Source: Bdellovibrio bacteriovorus | GTDB lineage: Bacteria > Bdellovibrionota > Bdellovibrionia > Bdellovibrionales > Bdellovibrionaceae | Direction of reading: 5' to 3' | Length of the DNA stretch: 64,000 nt | NCBI RefSeq assembly: GCF_001592755.1 | Contig: NZ_LUKF01000002.1 | Span: 121,435 to 185,434, forward strand | Shown here: positions 16,772 to 59,974 of the stretch, piece by piece | Position numbering within the stretch: the first letter of the stretch is position 1 | Layout: every line of letters begins with the position of its first letter | Made by a program: the position numbers and the translations under genes | The notes under the pieces: generated by a model | What the model was told of the DNA's origin: nothing | Database searches by the model: none | What the model saw: only the letters and a program-made list of their open reading frames with translations

Positions 16772-17068
16772 TTATTTTTTGACGCACGCGCCACTATGAC
16801 AGACATGATCACCGGCGCAGGTGATTTCTTTTTCCAAAGGCTGTCCGTTTTGACAGGAAAATTCTAAAACTTTCTGTCCATCTAAACAGCGGTCATGTTC
16901 TTTGATCATTTGTGTGTAACAAGAATCTCCCAAACAATTCTCATCACCTAAAGAATAAACTACTTTACCTGCAACCAAGGGCTGAACTCCATTGTCAGAG
17001 TCCTTACACACACCTGCGTGAACAGTTCCGGTCGCCATAAGAAAAGAAATAATAAGGAGATATTTCAT
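16772..17068 (-). CDS. Small Cys-rich exported protein
   Basis: This is a 98-residue protein with a clear signal peptide (LLIISFLMATGTVHA) and a short mature domain carrying ten cysteines, likely held by disulfides in the periplasm or outside the cell. I do not recognise the family. Its ATG shares one base with the stop of the next exported protein gene upstream (TAATG), so the two are translated together and may act together. Confidence 0.8.
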   Translation of the reverse strand: MKYLLIISFLMATGTVHAGVCKDSDNGVQPLVAGKVVYSLGDENCLGDSCYTQMIKEHDRCLDGQKVLEFSCQNGQPLEKEITCAGDHVCHSGACVKK

Positions 17069-17763
17069 TATTGCACCTCACAGCGGTAGCTCTTCGTTAA
17101 AGAGGCTTGGGTTGTCCAGTCACGCTCTTTTTTCGGAGGTCCACACATCACGATCAATTCTAAATCAACTTGCTTTGACTCTTGGCTTTTTAAACGGATT
17201 GTTGAAGAGTAGGAGCATGGAGATTGGCAATACTTCTGCTCCATGTATTCACCCAAACTGTTATCACTCATCAGGGTTTCTTGCGCAAACGTGGTGGCAT
17301 CCGCCGTATTTGCAAAAGCTTTTCTAATGGCTTTTCCACTGGCTGCGACACCGAACTTTTTTCCTTCTGCCGGAGAAAGCTGAATTGCCGTGTACTGTTG
17401 GGGGCAAGACTCATGCGGAACTACGCCTGTGGGTTTCGTAGAAACTTCCACCACAGGAGCACTGATGCGTGAACATCCGCCGGGACATCCGCCTGACTGT
17501 TTCAGAAATTCTTTTTGCAGACCTTCGAGTTGCGAAAACAAGCCCTTCATTTTAGAGCTGGCCGACAAAATTCCATAACTAATCGCAGGCAAGGCTTGCT
17601 TTTCAGCTTTCACCTTCACATCGCAATGGGATTTGTTGTTTTTATTGAGCACATCGCAAAGCTCTTTCAAGTCTTGCGTTGACGATGTCTTCGAAGAACA
17701 GGCCTGCTGGGCATGAGCCACAGACCCCAATACAAAAATCAAAGTTAAGAGAATGTGTTTCAT
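17068..17763 (-). CDS. Cys-rich exported protein with FliA-type promoter
   Basis: This is a 231-residue protein with a signal peptide (MKHILLTLIFVLGSVAHAQ). The mature part has cysteine clusters CPGGC and CQSPC and a helical segment around 65-90; the family is not known to me. There is no ribosome-binding site before the ATG. Instead the octamer GCCGATAA lies seven bases upstream with a TAAAATAA element 12 bases further, matching a sigma-28 promoter and predicting a nearly leaderless transcript. The small Cys-rich gene downstream overlaps by one base. Likely a secreted product of the motile stage (inference). Confidence 0.82.
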   Translation of the reverse strand: MKHILLTLIFVLGSVAHAQQACSSKTSSTQDLKELCDVLNKNNKSHCDVKVKAEKQALPAISYGILSASSKMKGLFSQLEGLQKEFLKQSGGCPGGCSRISAPVVEVSTKPTGVVPHESCPQQYTAIQLSPAEGKKFGVAASGKAIRKAFANTADATTFAQETLMSDNSLGEYMEQKYCQSPCSYSSTIRLKSQESKQVDLELIVMCGPPKKERDWTTQASLTKSYRCEVQ

Positions 17764-17770
17764 GCTGACT

Positions 17771-17798
17771 TTATCGGCAGATTAAACGGCTTATTTTA
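17771..17798 (-). promoter_or_regulatory. Sigma-28 (FliA)-type promoter
   Basis: Read on the minus strand: TAAAATAA, 12 bases, then GCCGATAA, against the E. coli FliA consensus TAAAGTTT, 11 bases, GCCGATAA. The -10 is a perfect match. The start codon begins seven bases after it, so transcription should begin at or within two bases of the ATG. Confidence 0.65.
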
Positions 17799-38389: not shown

Positions 38390-39217
38390 ATGAAAAAATT
38401 TATTTTAATTGCAACCTGCGCCCTCAACTTTTCTGCCTGCGCCCGCATGGATATTGCCGTCAACTGGGCCGATACTTTTATCGCCGGACGCGTCGACGAC
38501 TACTTCGATATTTCTTCAGAACAAAGCAAGAATTTAAAAAAGTCACTGCAAGGTGACTTTAAAAAAATTAAAACCGAAGTGCTTCCTCAATGGATTGACA
38601 GTGCCAAACAATTAGAAAAAGACGTCGCCACTAATTCGTTGGACGAACAGAAGGTCAACACCGCGTTCGATCTTGTGATTTCCAATGTGGAACACTTCAC
38701 CTCCCACTTTTCCAAAACAGCCGTGGACTTCATTGCTTCAACGGATGGAGATCAGCTCAGCTATTTTCAAAAGTCTTTTAAAGAAAAAAATGAAGACGAT
38801 CTGAAGGACATCCGTTCAAAAAAGTACGAAAAAAATCAAAAGAAGCGCTACTTCAAGTACTTTGAAATGTTCATTGGTGACCTTTCCAAAGAGCAATCCG
38901 CTTTGATTGAAAAGCACCTTCAGGAAACACCCTATCCCGCTGAACTTAAAATTAAAAATCGTGAACATGTCTTTCAAGTGTTCATGCAAAAGCGAGCGCA
39001 CCCCGAAGAACTTAAGAATTTTGTCGCCCAGTTTTCACAGCAACCTGACGCCTTCAATCTTCCCGAATTCAATGAGGCGGTAAAGAAATATCAAGTTCGC
39101 CTCAAATCACTGCTCACGCAGGTGCTGACGACTTTAAGTCCAGCACAGAAGAAAGAACTTTGCGACAACCTGCTTGAAAAGGTGGCTCAGTTAGAGAAAA
39201 TCCGCGGCCGCTCTTAA
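38390..39217 (+). CDS. DUF6279-type lipoprotein
   Basis: Predicted lipoprotein of 275 residues with a lipobox FSAC at Cys17. The segment after it, VNWADTFIAGRVDDYFDISSEQ, resembles the start of DUF6279 lipoproteins, a family of unknown function; the rest is a helical, Lys/Glu/Gln-rich domain. No ribosome-binding site precedes the ATG. GCCGAAAA, one base different from the FliA -10 octamer, lies five bases before it but lacks a -35 element. Function unknown. Confidence 0.78.
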   Translation: MKKFILIATCALNFSACARMDIAVNWADTFIAGRVDDYFDISSEQSKNLKKSLQGDFKKIKTEVLPQWIDSAKQLEKDVATNSLDEQKVNTAFDLVISNVEHFTSHFSKTAVDFIASTDGDQLSYFQKSFKEKNEDDLKDIRSKKYEKNQKKRYFKYFEMFIGDLSKEQSALIEKHLQETPYPAELKIKNREHVFQVFMQKRAHPEELKNFVAQFSQQPDAFNLPEFNEAVKKYQVRLKSLLTQVLTTLSPAQKKELCDNLLEKVAQLEKIRGRS

Positions 39218-39240
39218 GTCTAGTTCCCCTGAAAACTGCT

Positions 39241-39267
39241 GAAAATTCCAGAACGTTCCGCCGATAA
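39241..39267 (+). promoter_or_regulatory. Sigma-28 (FliA)-type promoter of the glutaminase-like gene
   Basis: GAAAATTC, 11 bases, then a perfect GCCGATAA (39260-39267), the FliA spacing. The start codon lies eight bases after the octamer, so the transcript should have a leader of only one to three bases; no ribosome-binding site exists in the gap. Confidence 0.65.
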
Positions 39268-39275
39268 GAAGAGCG

Positions 39276-40037
39276 ATGAAAGGCTTGCTTGCTCTTCTTT
39301 TCAGTTTGAATGCATCTGTGGTTTCCGCGAACGACGGTTTGCATTCCTTTGTCAAAGGCCTGGATACCACCCTTAAATATGTCCATCGCGCAGATTCGCG
39401 TCCTTGCGAAAATGAAGCTTTGATCCCGGCCTCTTCACAAAGTGCAAAGTATCAAGGCAAAGCGGTCACGGCACTTTCTGAATCCGATGCGCAAGCTTTG
39501 TTTCGCGAAATGCAGTCACACACCGAAATCCCCTTTGATTTTGCCATCGCCGGCTGCGAAGAACGCGCTCACGAAATGTCGCGCCTTATGCTGCTAAAAG
39601 GCGTCCGCCCTTTAAAAATGTTTGCCTCTGTGGATGAAAACAAATCTCCGCGACTTGAAGTCCCGCATCCAAATGGCAAAGACAAACGCCGCTGGAAATT
39701 CCATGTGGCGCCACTGGTGATGGTGCGAATCAACGGTAAAGAGGTCCCTTACATCATTGATCCGTCCATGGAAAAAAAGGCCGTGCCTTTGCAAGAGTGG
39801 AAAAAGCACATGACTTTGCATGATCCCAAAATTCCAGTGATGATGGATGCAACAATAGCTGAGCAGTATGACATCTCGGGACGTTATGTCCGTCCTTTCA
39901 GCGACGAAAGCTGGAATCGCGCCAACCAAGAAAAGCTCAAAGAGTTTAAAGAATATTCAAAAGATCCTGACGGAGAAAACAATTATCTTTTCCAGATGCA
40001 ACGGGATCTTGAACGTATGGATATGATGGACAACTAG
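39276..40037 (+). CDS. Exported protein-glutamine-glutaminase-like enzyme
   Basis: Predicted secreted enzyme of 253 residues, with a signal peptide (LLALLFSLNASVVSA). The pattern FDFAIAGCEERAHEM (Cys94), RRWKFHVAPLVMV (His143) and YIIDPSM (Asp162) matches the Cys-His-Asp triad and spacing of bacterial protein-glutaminases, which deamidate glutamines in proteins to glutamates. The pro-region typical of the Chryseobacterium enzyme is short here (about 20-75). Targets are unknown; in a predator, prey proteins are an obvious guess. It has its own sigma-28-type promoter. Confidence 0.82.
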   Translation: MKGLLALLFSLNASVVSANDGLHSFVKGLDTTLKYVHRADSRPCENEALIPASSQSAKYQGKAVTALSESDAQALFREMQSHTEIPFDFAIAGCEERAHEMSRLMLLKGVRPLKMFASVDENKSPRLEVPHPNGKDKRRWKFHVAPLVMVRINGKEVPYIIDPSMEKKAVPLQEWKKHMTLHDPKIPVMMDATIAEQYDISGRYVRPFSDESWNRANQEKLKEFKEYSKDPDGENNYLFQMQRDLERMDMMDN

Positions 40038-55912: not shown

Positions 55913-55920
55913 GCCGATAA
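55913..55920 (+). promoter_or_regulatory. FliA-type -10 octamer before the fibre gene
   Basis: A perfect GCCGATAA ends seven bases before ATG 55928, as at 17771 and 39260. A good -35 TAAA element is not seen 15 bases upstream, so this match is weaker than the other two. Confidence 0.45.
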
Positions 55921-55927
55921 GTAAAGC

Positions 55928-58900
55928 ATGGAACTAAGGTACGTCACTGGTATAACCATCTCATTATTAATATCGTTTTTATCCGCAAGCGCACTTGCAG
56001 CTCCGCCGGCTCTGACTTTTCAGGGACGCATTTTAAAAACGGACGGAACCCCCTTAGAGTATTCTAACGTCAGCTTTATTTTTCAAATCACAGATCCTTC
56101 AGGTCACTGTGTGATTTATCAAGAGCAAGTGACCGGCGTAAATATGGAGAATTCCAAAGGCATCTTTGATGTTCCCATCGGAAAAGGCGGCGTGAACTAT
56201 CCTTTAAGTGGTGGCTTTACGGTTCTTGATGCTTTTAACAACGCGTCTCCTTTCACTTGCGGAGCCTGCAGTGGTTATAGTTGTACCGACAGCACAAGTA
56301 CTTACAACGCTGTTCAAACAGATGGTCGATTGTTGCGTGTGCAATTTCACGACGGCACGGCTTGGCGTTTGATTTCTCCGGACAACGTGATTCGCTCTGT
56401 GCCCTACTCTGCATTTTCTCACTCTGCAAATAAACTTGGAACCAATGTCGCTTCAGACTTTCTTTTAAAGGCAGGTCTTCCGACTTGTAATGCCGGTGAG
56501 TTTTTAACTTGGAATGGAGCAGCCCTAACTTGTGCTGCCGTCAGCGGAGCCAGTGGCGGGACCGTCACCAACGTGACTTCGACGAATTCATATCTAAATG
56601 TAGCTAACGGCACATCGACTCCGGCATTAACTTTAAACGTCGGCACGACCGCGGGCACCGTCGCGGCTGGCGATGATTCTCGCTTTACAAATTCTCGCCC
56701 CCCGAACGGAAGCGCTGGCGGAGACCTCAGCGGAAGTTATCCGAATCCCACAGTTCAAAAAATTCAGAACACAGCCGTTGCAAGTTCGGCTCCTTCAAGC
56801 GGCCAATATTTCAAATTCGACGGAACCTCTTGGGCCGGAGCGGCCATTGCTATTAGTGATGTCAACAATCTGACAACAACACTAGGAACGTATTTAACCA
56901 TGGCGGCATTTAATTCAGCTGTCGGTTCAGGGAACTGCGCAAGTCACCAAACTCCTTATTGGAATTCCGTCAGCAGTTCTTTTCAATGTCAGGCGATCAA
57001 TGTTTCCGTTGCCGGTGATATCAGCGGCAGTATTGGTGCCGTGTCCGTCAACAAAATCAAAGGCGTTGATGTCGATACGACAGGATTAACCACGGGACAA
57101 GTTCTAAAATACGATGGCACGAAATGGGCTCCGGCGAGTGATAGCAATGCTGGAGGGACCGTGACAAGTGTTACAGCAGGAACGGGCCTTTCAGGTGGAA
57201 CGATCACTACGACCGGAACTGTTTCATTGGCAAATACATCTGTGAGTGCCGGAAGCTATGGCAGTGCTACTCAAGTGGCTACTTTCACTGTCGATGCTCA
57301 GGGTCGATTGACCTCCGCCGGAAATGCAGCGATCCCGACTGCCAGCGGAACAACAACAGGTCTTTTATCTTCAACGGATTGGACGGCTTTCAATAGTAAA
57401 CTAGGTACGACTTCAAGTTTTAGCGGCGATATCTCGGGCACTTATAATTCAACAAGCGTTGATAAAATCAAAGGTCGCAGTGTGTCTGCAACGGCTCCCA
57501 CATCTGCTCAGTTCCTGGTCTATGATGGTTCAACACAATATGTGCCGGTATCATTAAGTGGCGATGCGACGATGGCCGCTAATGGCGCTATCACTTTGAA
57601 GAACACGGGCACTGCTGGCACCTACGCAAAAGTGACCACGGATGCGCAAGGAAGAGTGACCTCCGGAAGTACGCTTGCTGCTTCGGATATTCCAAATTTA
57701 GATTGGTCCAAAATCACCTCCGGTAAGCCAACGACTTTAAGTGGCTACGGCGTCACGGATGCCCTTCAAAACGCCGGGGCCACACCCAGCGTGCAAACAG
57801 GAACAGTCGCTGCTCGACCTGCAGCGGGAACAGCCGGCCGACTTTACGTTGGGTCTGATGACAACACTCTTTATCGCGACACAGGTTCTGCGTGGGTGAA
57901 AATTGGAGATGGAACTGGAACTGCTGGAGCTTTGACGGCGGTCACGGCAAGTGCGCCATTGGCATCCAGCGGAGGTACGACTCCAAATATCACGATCGCT
58001 CAAGCTGACACGAATACAAACGGCTATTTAAGCTCTACTGATTGGAATACATTCAACAGCAAATTGGGAACATCTTCAACATTTGCCGGAGACGTCAGCG
58101 GAACTTCAAGCACTACGAGTGTGGATCGCATCAAAGGCAAATCCGTTTCGCCAGCAGCTTATGCTGCAGGACAGACTTTGCGTTATGATGGTACAAACTG
58201 GGTCAATGCAGCTTTAGGTTTTGCAGATCTTTCGGGCAGCGTGACGACAGCACAACTTCCTGTCGTGCCCGTCTCTAAAGGCGGTACTGGCGTCAGCACT
58301 TTGACGGCAGATCGTTTGCTTGTCAGTAATGCCACGGGTTCGGCTGTAAGTGAGTTTAACTGTGCGATGGGACAGCTTATTACTTTTGATGCTTCGGGAG
58401 TGATGGGATGTACAACTTATGCTTCCCTTCCTTTTTATGCTAACGGTGGGAACTCGTTTGGTGGTAACGCCGTTATTGGAACCAATGATGCTTACAACCT
58501 TGGGTTTGAAACTGGTGGCACGACTCGCATGACTATTCAGAATTCGAATGGATATGTTGGTATTGGAACTGCTACTCCAACTCGCGTACTTGAATTGAAC
58601 TTTAATACGACGACTTCGAATGGATTTCAGTCAACGAATACAAATACTGCCGGTTCTTCATCGATCACTCTGGCCGTAGGCACAAATCAAGTTTATCTAG
58701 GCACCTGGGGTACAACGTCCCCAGCAGGCATGGTCACTTACCTTCAATCAACGGCCACGAACACGTTTGATATAAGTACCCATTTAGCCCAACCTATTAC
58801 AATCTCCACTAACAAAAGTTCGGGCGCTGCCGCATCTGAAAGAATGCGCTTCACTTCGGCGGGACTTATCGGGGTCGGCACGAACAATCCGTCGGCGAAT

Positions 58901-59974
58901 TTTCACATCGCAGGCAACTTACTCACTGGAAGCGCAACGACTCAGAAAGTAGTCAGTACGAACACGACTTCGACGGCAACTTCAAACATCAATAGTGCAG
59001 GCTTTTACCAATACGTCGATAACAGCACCGCCAATTCTAATTCGAATCAGGTTCTTCGTGTCGAGTATATTCGAAATCCAGCGGCCACCGGTGTGCCGAC
59101 TTCATTTGATGCTTTGATTACCGCGGCAAATGCAAACATCAATTCCAATGCACCTTACAACCTGCGCGGCGTAAATGTCGAAGGTCCCATCGTAGCCACC
59201 GGGGTGACGCTAAATACTTGGAGAGGCGTTTCCATTGGAGCCCCATCGGGTGCGGGAACTGTTACGAACAGATACGCGCTGGTCACCGATCCTGCCGCAG
59301 GATTTGTCGGGTTAGGAACTGTGACACCTCAAGCGCAGCTTCACATAACGAGTGCAAACAGTTATGCCGCTATTATGTTAGGTAACGATGGTGGCAGTAA
59401 CAATATTCATATGACCCACGAAGTGGATGGCACTTTCGCTTTGTTTAACGGCACCGTGGGCGCCGGTACGACTTTATTGTCCATTACTGCTGCGGGAAAT
59501 GGCTGGCTGAAAGGGACTCTGACTCAAGCCTCGGATGTTCGACTAAAAAAAGACATTCAGACAATGCCTGAAGAATTGAATAAAATTCTTCAAATTCGCC
59601 CCGTGACTTATCACTGGAAAGAGGAAAGTCGCAGCAAAGAAAAACAAATTGGTTTCATTGCTCAAGAAGTTGAAAAAATTTATCCGGAACTTGTGCAAAA
59701 CAACCGTGATGGAAATAAGTCGGTGGCTTACTCAAATTTCGTAGCTCCGATCATTAAGGCTCTTCAAGAGTTCTATGCGCAGTGGTCAAACCACAGTCAA
59801 AAGATTGATCGCGAAATAGCATCCATCCAAGAGGAAAATAGCTCCTTAAAAAGGCATGTTCAACAAACGCAGCAAGAGCTTGAGCGAGTCAAAAAAGACA
59901 ATCTTCAAAAAGAAAAAGAACTGCAAGAAATGAAAGCCCGCTTAGAAAGAATCGAAAAAAGTCTTTCTAAGTAG
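55928..59974 (+). CDS. Large tail-fibre-like surface protein with S74 chaperone domain
   Basis: Predicted exported fibre of 1,348 residues. After a signal peptide (ISLLISFLSASALA) comes an N-terminal domain (about 28-190) with the common ALTFQGRIL start. A long repeat-rich shaft follows (about 200-880) with GGTVTSVTAGTGLSGG motifs and four copies of a GDxSG...KIKG...YDGTxW unit. Then come a glycine/threonine-rich tip region and a C-terminal S74 intramolecular chaperone (about 1,200-1,285; SDVRLKKDI). The last 65 residues form a coiled coil. In phage fibres the chaperone trimerises the shaft and cuts itself off. Similar trimeric adhesins have been described in Bdellovibrio as prey-recognition fibres. 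No phage genes are nearby. Confidence 0.87.
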   Translation: MELRYVTGITISLLISFLSASALAAPPALTFQGRILKTDGTPLEYSNVSFIFQITDPSGHCVIYQEQVTGVNMENSKGIFDVPIGKGGVNYPLSGGFTVLDAFNNASPFTCGACSGYSCTDSTSTYNAVQTDGRLLRVQFHDGTAWRLISPDNVIRSVPYSAFSHSANKLGTNVASDFLLKAGLPTCNAGEFLTWNGAALTCAAVSGASGGTVTNVTSTNSYLNVANGTSTPALTLNVGTTAGTVAAGDDSRFTNSRPPNGSAGGDLSGSYPNPTVQKIQNTAVASSAPSSGQYFKFDGTSWAGAAIAISDVNNLTTTLGTYLTMAAFNSAVGSGNCASHQTPYWNSVSSSFQCQAINVSVAGDISGSIGAVSVNKIKGVDVDTTGLTTGQVLKYDGTKWAPASDSNAGGTVTSVTAGTGLSGGTITTTGTVSLANTSVSAGSYGSATQVATFTVDAQGRLTSAGNAAIPTASGTTTGLLSSTDWTAFNSKLGTTSSFSGDISGTYNSTSVDKIKGRSVSATAPTSAQFLVYDGSTQYVPVSLSGDATMAANGAITLKNTGTAGTYAKVTTDAQGRVTSGSTLAASDIPNLDWSKITSGKPTTLSGYGVTDALQNAGATPSVQTGTVAARPAAGTAGRLYVGSDDNTLYRDTGSAWVKIGDGTGTAGALTAVTASAPLASSGGTTPNITIAQADTNTNGYLSSTDWNTFNSKLGTSSTFAGDVSGTSSTTSVDRIKGKSVSPAAYAAGQTLRYDGTNWVNAALGFADLSGSVTTAQLPVVPVSKGGTGVSTLTADRLLVSNATGSAVSEFNCAMGQLITFDASGVMGCTTYASLPFYANGGNSFGGNAVIGTNDAYNLGFETGGTTRMTIQNSNGYVGIGTATPTRVLELNFNTTTSNGFQSTNTNTAGSSSITLAVGTNQVYLGTWGTTSPAGMVTYLQSTATNTFDISTHLAQPITISTNKSSGAAASERMRFTSAGLIGVGTNNPSANFHIAGNLLTGSATTQKVVSTNTTSTATSNINSAGFYQYVDNSTANSNSNQVLRVEYIRNPAATGVPTSFDALITAANANINSNAPYNLRGVNVEGPIVATGVTLNTWRGVSIGAPSGAGTVTNRYALVTDPAAGFVGLGTVTPQAQLHITSANSYAAIMLGNDGGSNNIHMTHEVDGTFALFNGTVGAGTTLLSITAAGNGWLKGTLTQASDVRLKKDIQTMPEELNKILQIRPVTYHWKEESRSKEKQIGFIAQEVEKIYPELVQNNRDGNKSVAYSNFVAPIIKALQEFYAQWSNHSQKIDREIASIQEENSSLKRHVQQTQQELERVKKDNLQKEKELQEMKARLERIEKSLSK
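56719..58240 (+). repeat. Four fibre-shaft repeats
   Basis: Units begin near residues 264, 363, 499 and 721 of the fibre: GD(L/I/I/V)SG, a short variable stretch, V-x-KI(K/Q)G/N, then GQxLxYDGTxW. Two copies of LSSTDWxxFNSKLGT intervene. Such units build a triple beta-helical shaft. Confidence 0.75.

Follow-up and report, generated by a model that had tools for sequence, protein, structure and literature searches.

The gene for a secreted protein-glutaminase-like protein in Bdellovibrio bacteriovorus very probably has its own FliA (sigma-28)-type promoter and is read from a leaderless or nearly leaderless mRNA, as a member of a genus-wide class of genes for mostly exported or membrane-anchored proteins. 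The sequence-based parts of this reading are the promoter motif, its fixed distance to the ATG, its conservation in orthologs, the -35 register, the absence of a Shine-Dalgarno sequence, the position of the initiator and the presence of a FliA gene. All coordinates refer to the window, that is, the whole 64,000-nucleotide stretch of DNA that was analysed.

Probable promoter elements ahead of the glutaminase gene

The glutaminase-like gene (39276..40037, + strand) encodes a protein of 253 aa with a signal peptide. The protein belongs to the Gln_deamidase_2 family (PF18626; E 3.6e-27, 95.1 bits against a curated cut-off of 25) and has a weak PDB match, 8z3i_A. Residues C94, H143, and D162 are invariant across 9 aligned sequences, and we take them to be the Cys-His-Asp catalytic triad of protein glutaminase.

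Direct reading of the window sequence confirmed the arrangement claimed in the preliminary description, GAAAATTC-N11-GCCGATAA-N8-ATG, at 39241-39278 on the + strand. It consists of the -35-like block of that description, GAAAATTC (39241-39248), an 11-nt spacer (39249-39259), the -10 element GCCGATAA (39260-39267), in which the placement of CCGA is conserved in orthologs, an 8-nt spacer GAAGAGCG (39268-39275), and the start codon ATG (39276-39278). The -10 sequence CCGATA of FliA-type attack-phase promoters is matched at 39261-39266. Judged by sequence, the -35 register known from HD100 attack-phase promoters fits better here, giving TGAAA-N16-CCGATA. In this published Bdellovibrio register (TTAAG-N16-CCGATA), the -35 element TGAAA lies at 39240..39244 on the + strand, overlaps the block GAAAATTC and matches the consensus TTAAG at 3 of 5 positions, which is weak. 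An Rfam scan of the window gave no match.

The absence of a ribosome-binding site, also claimed earlier, is borne out: no AGGA, GGAG, or GAGG core is present from -18 to -4 of the glutaminase ATG, and the GAAGAG found there is merely purine-rich. The gene thus combines an AUG start with the lack of a Shine-Dalgarno sequence, as expected of a leaderless mRNA, whose primary 5' end should also lie within about 0–5 nt of the start codon.

Conservation in orthologs and the upstream lipoprotein gene

A search for orthologs in 59 related genomes gave a match in 26, and the 16 genus loci with full-family similarity, the window's included, were used as the ortholog set. The other 15 proteins are 39–86% identical to that of the window. 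CCGA is located 14–16 nt before the aligned ATG in all 16 loci, and the -35 region has T at -21 in 13/16 and A at -19 in 11/16. Of 14 further loci with more distantly related glutaminase-domain genes, from within and outside the genus, five have CCGA[TA]A 13–15 nt before an ATG. These five loci (L030, L032, L038, L039, and L040) are in the genus and include the own genome's second copy (G000:C19).

A DUF6279 lipoprotein gene (38390..39217, + strand; PF19795, E 1e-15) precedes the glutaminase gene on the same strand with a gap of 58 nt, and scanning the + strand of the intergenic region gave no terminator-like site. Read-through from this possible source could therefore express the glutaminase, leaving the motif incidental. 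However, DUF6279 is found within 1.5 kb upstream in only 7/16 ortholog loci, while the motif is kept in all of them, including the nine without a DUF6279 match, which indicates that the promoter is tied to the gene and not to its neighbourhood. In addition, the ATG is served by no Shine-Dalgarno core, and read-through RNA could hide it in a hairpin. Read-through as the explanation for glutaminase expression is thus considered unlikely. The DUF6279 gene has a CCGAAA of its own 12 nt before its ATG, but this is present only in the window and L012 among the seven loci, and no promoter is claimed for it.

Predicted transcription start

We infer that the glutaminase mRNA starts at 39275 (+ strand) with a leader of 0–2 nt. 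The G at this position, 14 nt past the first C of CCGATA (39261), would give a 1-nt leader and falls within the interval 39274–39276 suggested in the preliminary description. Together with the C at 39274, it conforms to a rule of pyrimidine at position 7 and purine at position 8 (Y7-R8) after the box. The same C+14 distance, which is 39275 for the window gene, corresponds to the A of the ATG in genes with a 6-nt spacer (N6).

This rule is seen across the genus. A pyrimidine occupies position 7 after GCCGATAA in 68 of 76 distinct N6 sites, compared with 204 of 334 bases preceding background ATGs (p 5e-8). At N7-8 sites, the pyrimidine-purine pair is fixed at positions 7–8 and does not shift with the ATG (21/33, p 3e-6); both counts are drawn from the 150 listed matches among 218 N5-8 matches. 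Among 65 non-redundant genes, position 7 is a pyrimidine in 40/42 N6 genes, and Y7-R8 is found in 12/18 N7-8 genes. The start may slip, because position 8 is a T in the most closely related ortholog, L012, and the spacer of L013 is longer by one base.

Three sRNAs with published HD100 starts are marked as FliA-dependent. APsRNA6 and APsRNA7 start 14 nt past the first C of the CCG box (the APsRNA7 box, CCGTAA, was identified by eye), and APsRNA3 starts 18 nt past it. If the C+18 distance is applied, the glutaminase start would fall inside the coding region. In the available part of a Campylobacter map, the sigma-28 box is placed 6–8 nt before the start, agreeing with C+14 (PMC3847290). An ordinary FliA promoter, with the RNA start or the real start codon further downstream and the ATG at 39276 unused, would fit the varying start distances of sigma-28, including that of APsRNA3. 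It is very unlikely, however, since the signal peptide begins exactly at ATG 39276, the 9 aligned orthologs all share M1, and both the spacing peak described below and the pyrimidine-purine register point to the ATG. The tight distance to the ATG and the purine-rich spacer could also suggest that the conserved block aids translation as an RNA element and is not a promoter. This alternative is highly improbable: a -35 element occupies the register known from published promoters, and RNAs with published starts begin past the block and would therefore not contain it.

Another HD100 sRNA, APsRNA5 (L137, G005:C1:605400-605800), carries a perfect GCCGATAAG box some 30 nt upstream of the start published for it, although the table of that paper does not mark it as FliA. 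In genome G005, taken as HD100, a c-di-GMP-I riboswitch is present at the coordinates published for merRNA, and the glutaminase gene lies on C1 near 2749908.

Genome-wide spacing between the box and the start codon

The exact pattern of the glutaminase promoter occurs once in the window. At up to three mismatches there are two matches, compared with a mean of 1.26 in shuffled sequences, so the motif by itself is close to chance in the window, and its significance rests on the distance to the ATG and not on motif matching. In the own genome, GCCGAWAAG-N(0-30)-ATG has 61 matches vs. 16 for the reversed pattern, and GCCGATAAG-N(5-8)-ATG has 13 vs. 1. Across 24 genus genomes, GCCGATAAG-N(0-30)-ATG has 597 matches vs. 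98 reversed, and GCCGATAAG-N(5-8)-ATG has 218 vs. 17. The spacing histogram, built from the 129 of 597 matches in five whole genomes listed in full, with own-genome rows left out, shows a single sharp peak at N6 (37/129); the other bins contain 10 (N8), 8 each (N4 and N5), 5 (N7), and 0–7 matches. A chance match, which would suit the near-chance frequency of the motif in the window and the one own-genome site of 13 that precedes a 1-codon frame, has negligible probability given the 16/16 orthologs and the 218 vs. 17 matches in the genus, and is refuted for the class. The E. coli-style motif alone, AAA-N15-GCCGATAA, was also searched, and with 10 genome matches vs. 6 reversed it was uninformative.

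The arrangement was further compared between two spacing ranges of equal width, N5-8 and N15-18. The counts are 182 vs. 38 in 20 genus genomes. Outside the genus they are 103 vs. 51 within the family (26 genomes from other genera) and 259 vs. 116 within the order (72 genomes from other families). In the tallied parts of the histograms outside the genus (143 of 171 and 98 of 161 matches), the peak is at N5-7 for other genera and at N5 for other families. By these contrasts, the arrangement is most sharply defined in Bdellovibrio and persists in weaker form across the order.

Genes in the class

Of the 13 own-genome N5-8 sites, 12 precede open frames of at least 101 codons. Pfam searches on ten of these proteins identified PilZ, HD-domain (HD_5), beta-propeller repeat, and TPR proteins, with two weak matches; no Pfam match was obtained for four of the ten. 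The remaining two of the 12 genes lie in the window. One encodes the glutaminase; the other encodes an exported fibre-like protein of 1348 aa (55928-59974) and has the arrangement GCCGATAAG-N6-ATG, with box and spacer at 55913..55927 on the + strand. The 1348-aa protein has an endosialidase-chaperone domain (PF13884) at its C-terminus and presumably resembles the fibre proteins described in PMC10769870. In the window, GCCGATAA-N7-ATG is also found before the gene for a 231-aa exported protein (17068-17763), with box and spacer at 17764..17778 on the - strand.

Among the 65 non-redundant genus genes, 53 encode a hydrophobic N-terminus. In the closest background set, for which a somewhat longer segment was scored, the figure is 143 of 334 genes. 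The -35 region of the 65 genes has T or C at -21 in 63, T at -20 in 40, and A at -18 in 45. A further -35 analysis kept 34 of 41 distinct sites, and among the seven dropped L122 is probably real. The preliminary description had proposed a shared regulon from two cases in one window. Such cases are insufficient as proof, and the proposal instead gains its support from the orthologs and the whole genomes.

The GCCGATAAG-N6-ATG arrangement also precedes the genes of several genus proteins whose N-terminus is similar to that of the 1348-aa protein (a signal peptide, then ...LTYQGR). Two genes with the FliA-type near-leaderless arrangement, encoding a PilZ protein and an HD_5-domain protein (L056 and L126), are c-di-GMP-related by family.

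Evidence for the proposed leaderless mRNAs

None of the 65 non-redundant genes has a Shine-Dalgarno core, compared with 180/334 background genes that have one, although part of this absence is forced because the promoter occupies that space. The spacing peak, the conservation in 16/16 orthologs, the -35 register and this lack of Shine-Dalgarno cores (0/65) support the FliA-type near-leaderless promoter first suggested from the window, as do the published start sites, which lie at the predicted distance in 2/3 cases.

Genes with a Shine-Dalgarno sequence avoid pairing of the upstream 18 nt with early codons (z +3.5 for 93 genes with hydrophobic N-termini and +4.9 for all 201). Such avoidance is missing from the FliA N5-8 genes (z -3.1 for 88 genes and -2.9 for 65 clusters), as expected if the upstream DNA is not in the mRNA. 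This pairing analysis dropped 13 of 101 sites, and the gene calls for the background sets (334 and 390) and the pairing sets are simple open-frame calls and not annotation.

The use of start codons was also considered. GTG or TTG follows the box at N5-8 in 104 cases vs. 41 for the reversed control in 24 genomes, and this excess is probably due to GCC-GAT-AAG being a common in-frame codon string. The GTG/TTG matches at N5-8 amount to about 2.2 per genome and codon, and ATG at N15-18 to 1.9 per genome (38 in 20 genomes). AUG-only use as proof of leaderlessness was rated weak, as GTG and TTG starts are rarer anyway. Leaderless genes may extend beyond FliA, since a sigma-70-like TANNNT is located exactly 12 nt before the ATG in 18/390 genes (contig C16 of G000, 1-400000, plus the window), with 1–12 genes at the other distances listed. 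In the available part of a 2025 toolbox paper on HD100 attack-phase cells, several native promoters gave far less reporter output when the ribosome-binding site was omitted (PMC12622784), which implies that leaderless translation in these cells could be weak.

Relation to known promoters and proposed mechanism

The class 3 flagellar promoters of E. coli have the consensus TAAAGTTT-N11-GCCGATAA. The window promoter shares with this consensus, as generally given, an identical -10 box and equal spacing between the boxes. In E. coli, genes of this class are transcribed with a leader that carries a ribosome-binding site, in contrast to what is predicted for the window gene.

A FliA gene is encoded in the own genome (G000:C9:33-704; TIGR02479, 281 bits, above the family cut-off); in HD100 the gene is bd3318. 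In the attack phase of HD100, 140 promoters were mapped, of which 92 have TTAAG-N16-CCGATA and were ascribed to FliA (Karunker et al., 2013; PMC3627812). These 92 include promoters of non-flagellar surface proteins and proteases, and their -10 and -35 register, as far as given in the available text, is the same as that of the window promoter (PMC3627812). According to this text, starts were called only if located upstream of a gene, so zero-leader starts on the ATG may have been dropped (PMC3627812). The consulted text gives no distance between promoter and start codon, and the words "leaderless," "leader," and "start codon" do not occur in the accessible main text of that paper (PMC3627812). 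Leaderless mRNAs with a -10 box beside the start codon are described in the consulted parts of reports on Leptospira (PMC5243855) and Campylobacter/Helicobacter (PMC3847290), where, as here, the RNA starts at or beside the AUG and no Shine-Dalgarno sequence is present. The leaderless genes in Campylobacter have, in the available text, a sigma-70 TAnAaT box and poor cross-species conservation (PMC3847290), whereas the Bdellovibrio class has a FliA-type box and an arrangement conserved across the genus. The FliA attack-phase regulon is already known; judged by titles and the openings of abstracts, no report of leaderless FliA transcripts in Bdellovibrio was found.

Four parts of the proposed mechanism are inferred: recognition by FliA, the precise start, the timing in the attack phase, and translation without a leader. 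The FliA holoenzyme would recognise the -10/-35 pair and start the RNA at 39275. With the -10 box so near the ATG, this RNA would be leaderless or nearly so, and its translation would have to use start-codon recognition without a Shine-Dalgarno sequence, with ribosomes initiating on the exposed 5' AUG. The class is presumably expressed in the attack phase. For many Bdellovibrio genes encoding exported proteins, the mRNA should therefore begin within 0–2 bases of the start codon.

If this is true, a large part of the predator's alternative-sigma regulon, rich in exported proteins, would be read from genus-conserved leaderless mRNAs, and a life-cycle switch would be tied to the mode of translation. 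Start sites of many HD100 genes would become testable, builders of expression tools would be warned that promoters may come without a native ribosome-binding site, and start-site maps that demand starts upstream of genes may overlook the class. A more speculative and rather doubtful extension is that FliA sets both gene choice and translation mode by fusing promoter and start codon, with secreted predation proteins made from leaderless mRNAs in the non-growing attack cell. In some genes, such as that of the glutaminase, the promoter DNA might then also act as a hairpin arm that silences read-through RNA, leaving only FliA-made mRNA translatable.

Inverted repeat around the start codon

An inverted repeat spans the glutaminase start codon (39266..39299, + strand), with the arms AAGAAGAGC (39266-39274) and GCTCTTCTT (39291-39299). 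Only RNA read through from the DUF6279 gene could form the hairpin, with AAGAAGAGC pairing across the start codon with GCUCUUCUU (39291-39299); FliA-made mRNA would not contain the first arm, AAGAAGAGC. The 101-nt fold around the start is unexceptional, as 32/200 shuffles fold equally well, while pairing in the 16 glutaminase loci is slightly stronger than in permuted pairs (6/200 permutations reach the observed value). Across the class, the mean duplex energy is below that of permuted pairs (3/500 permutations reach it; 65 clusters). A start-codon hairpin was rejected as a class feature, with 10 helices of at least 8 pairs (G-U allowed) vs. 10.6 expected after clustering. The hairpin is therefore retained only as a lead. 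Comparable repeats, differing in their letters, are present in several orthologs of the glutaminase gene.
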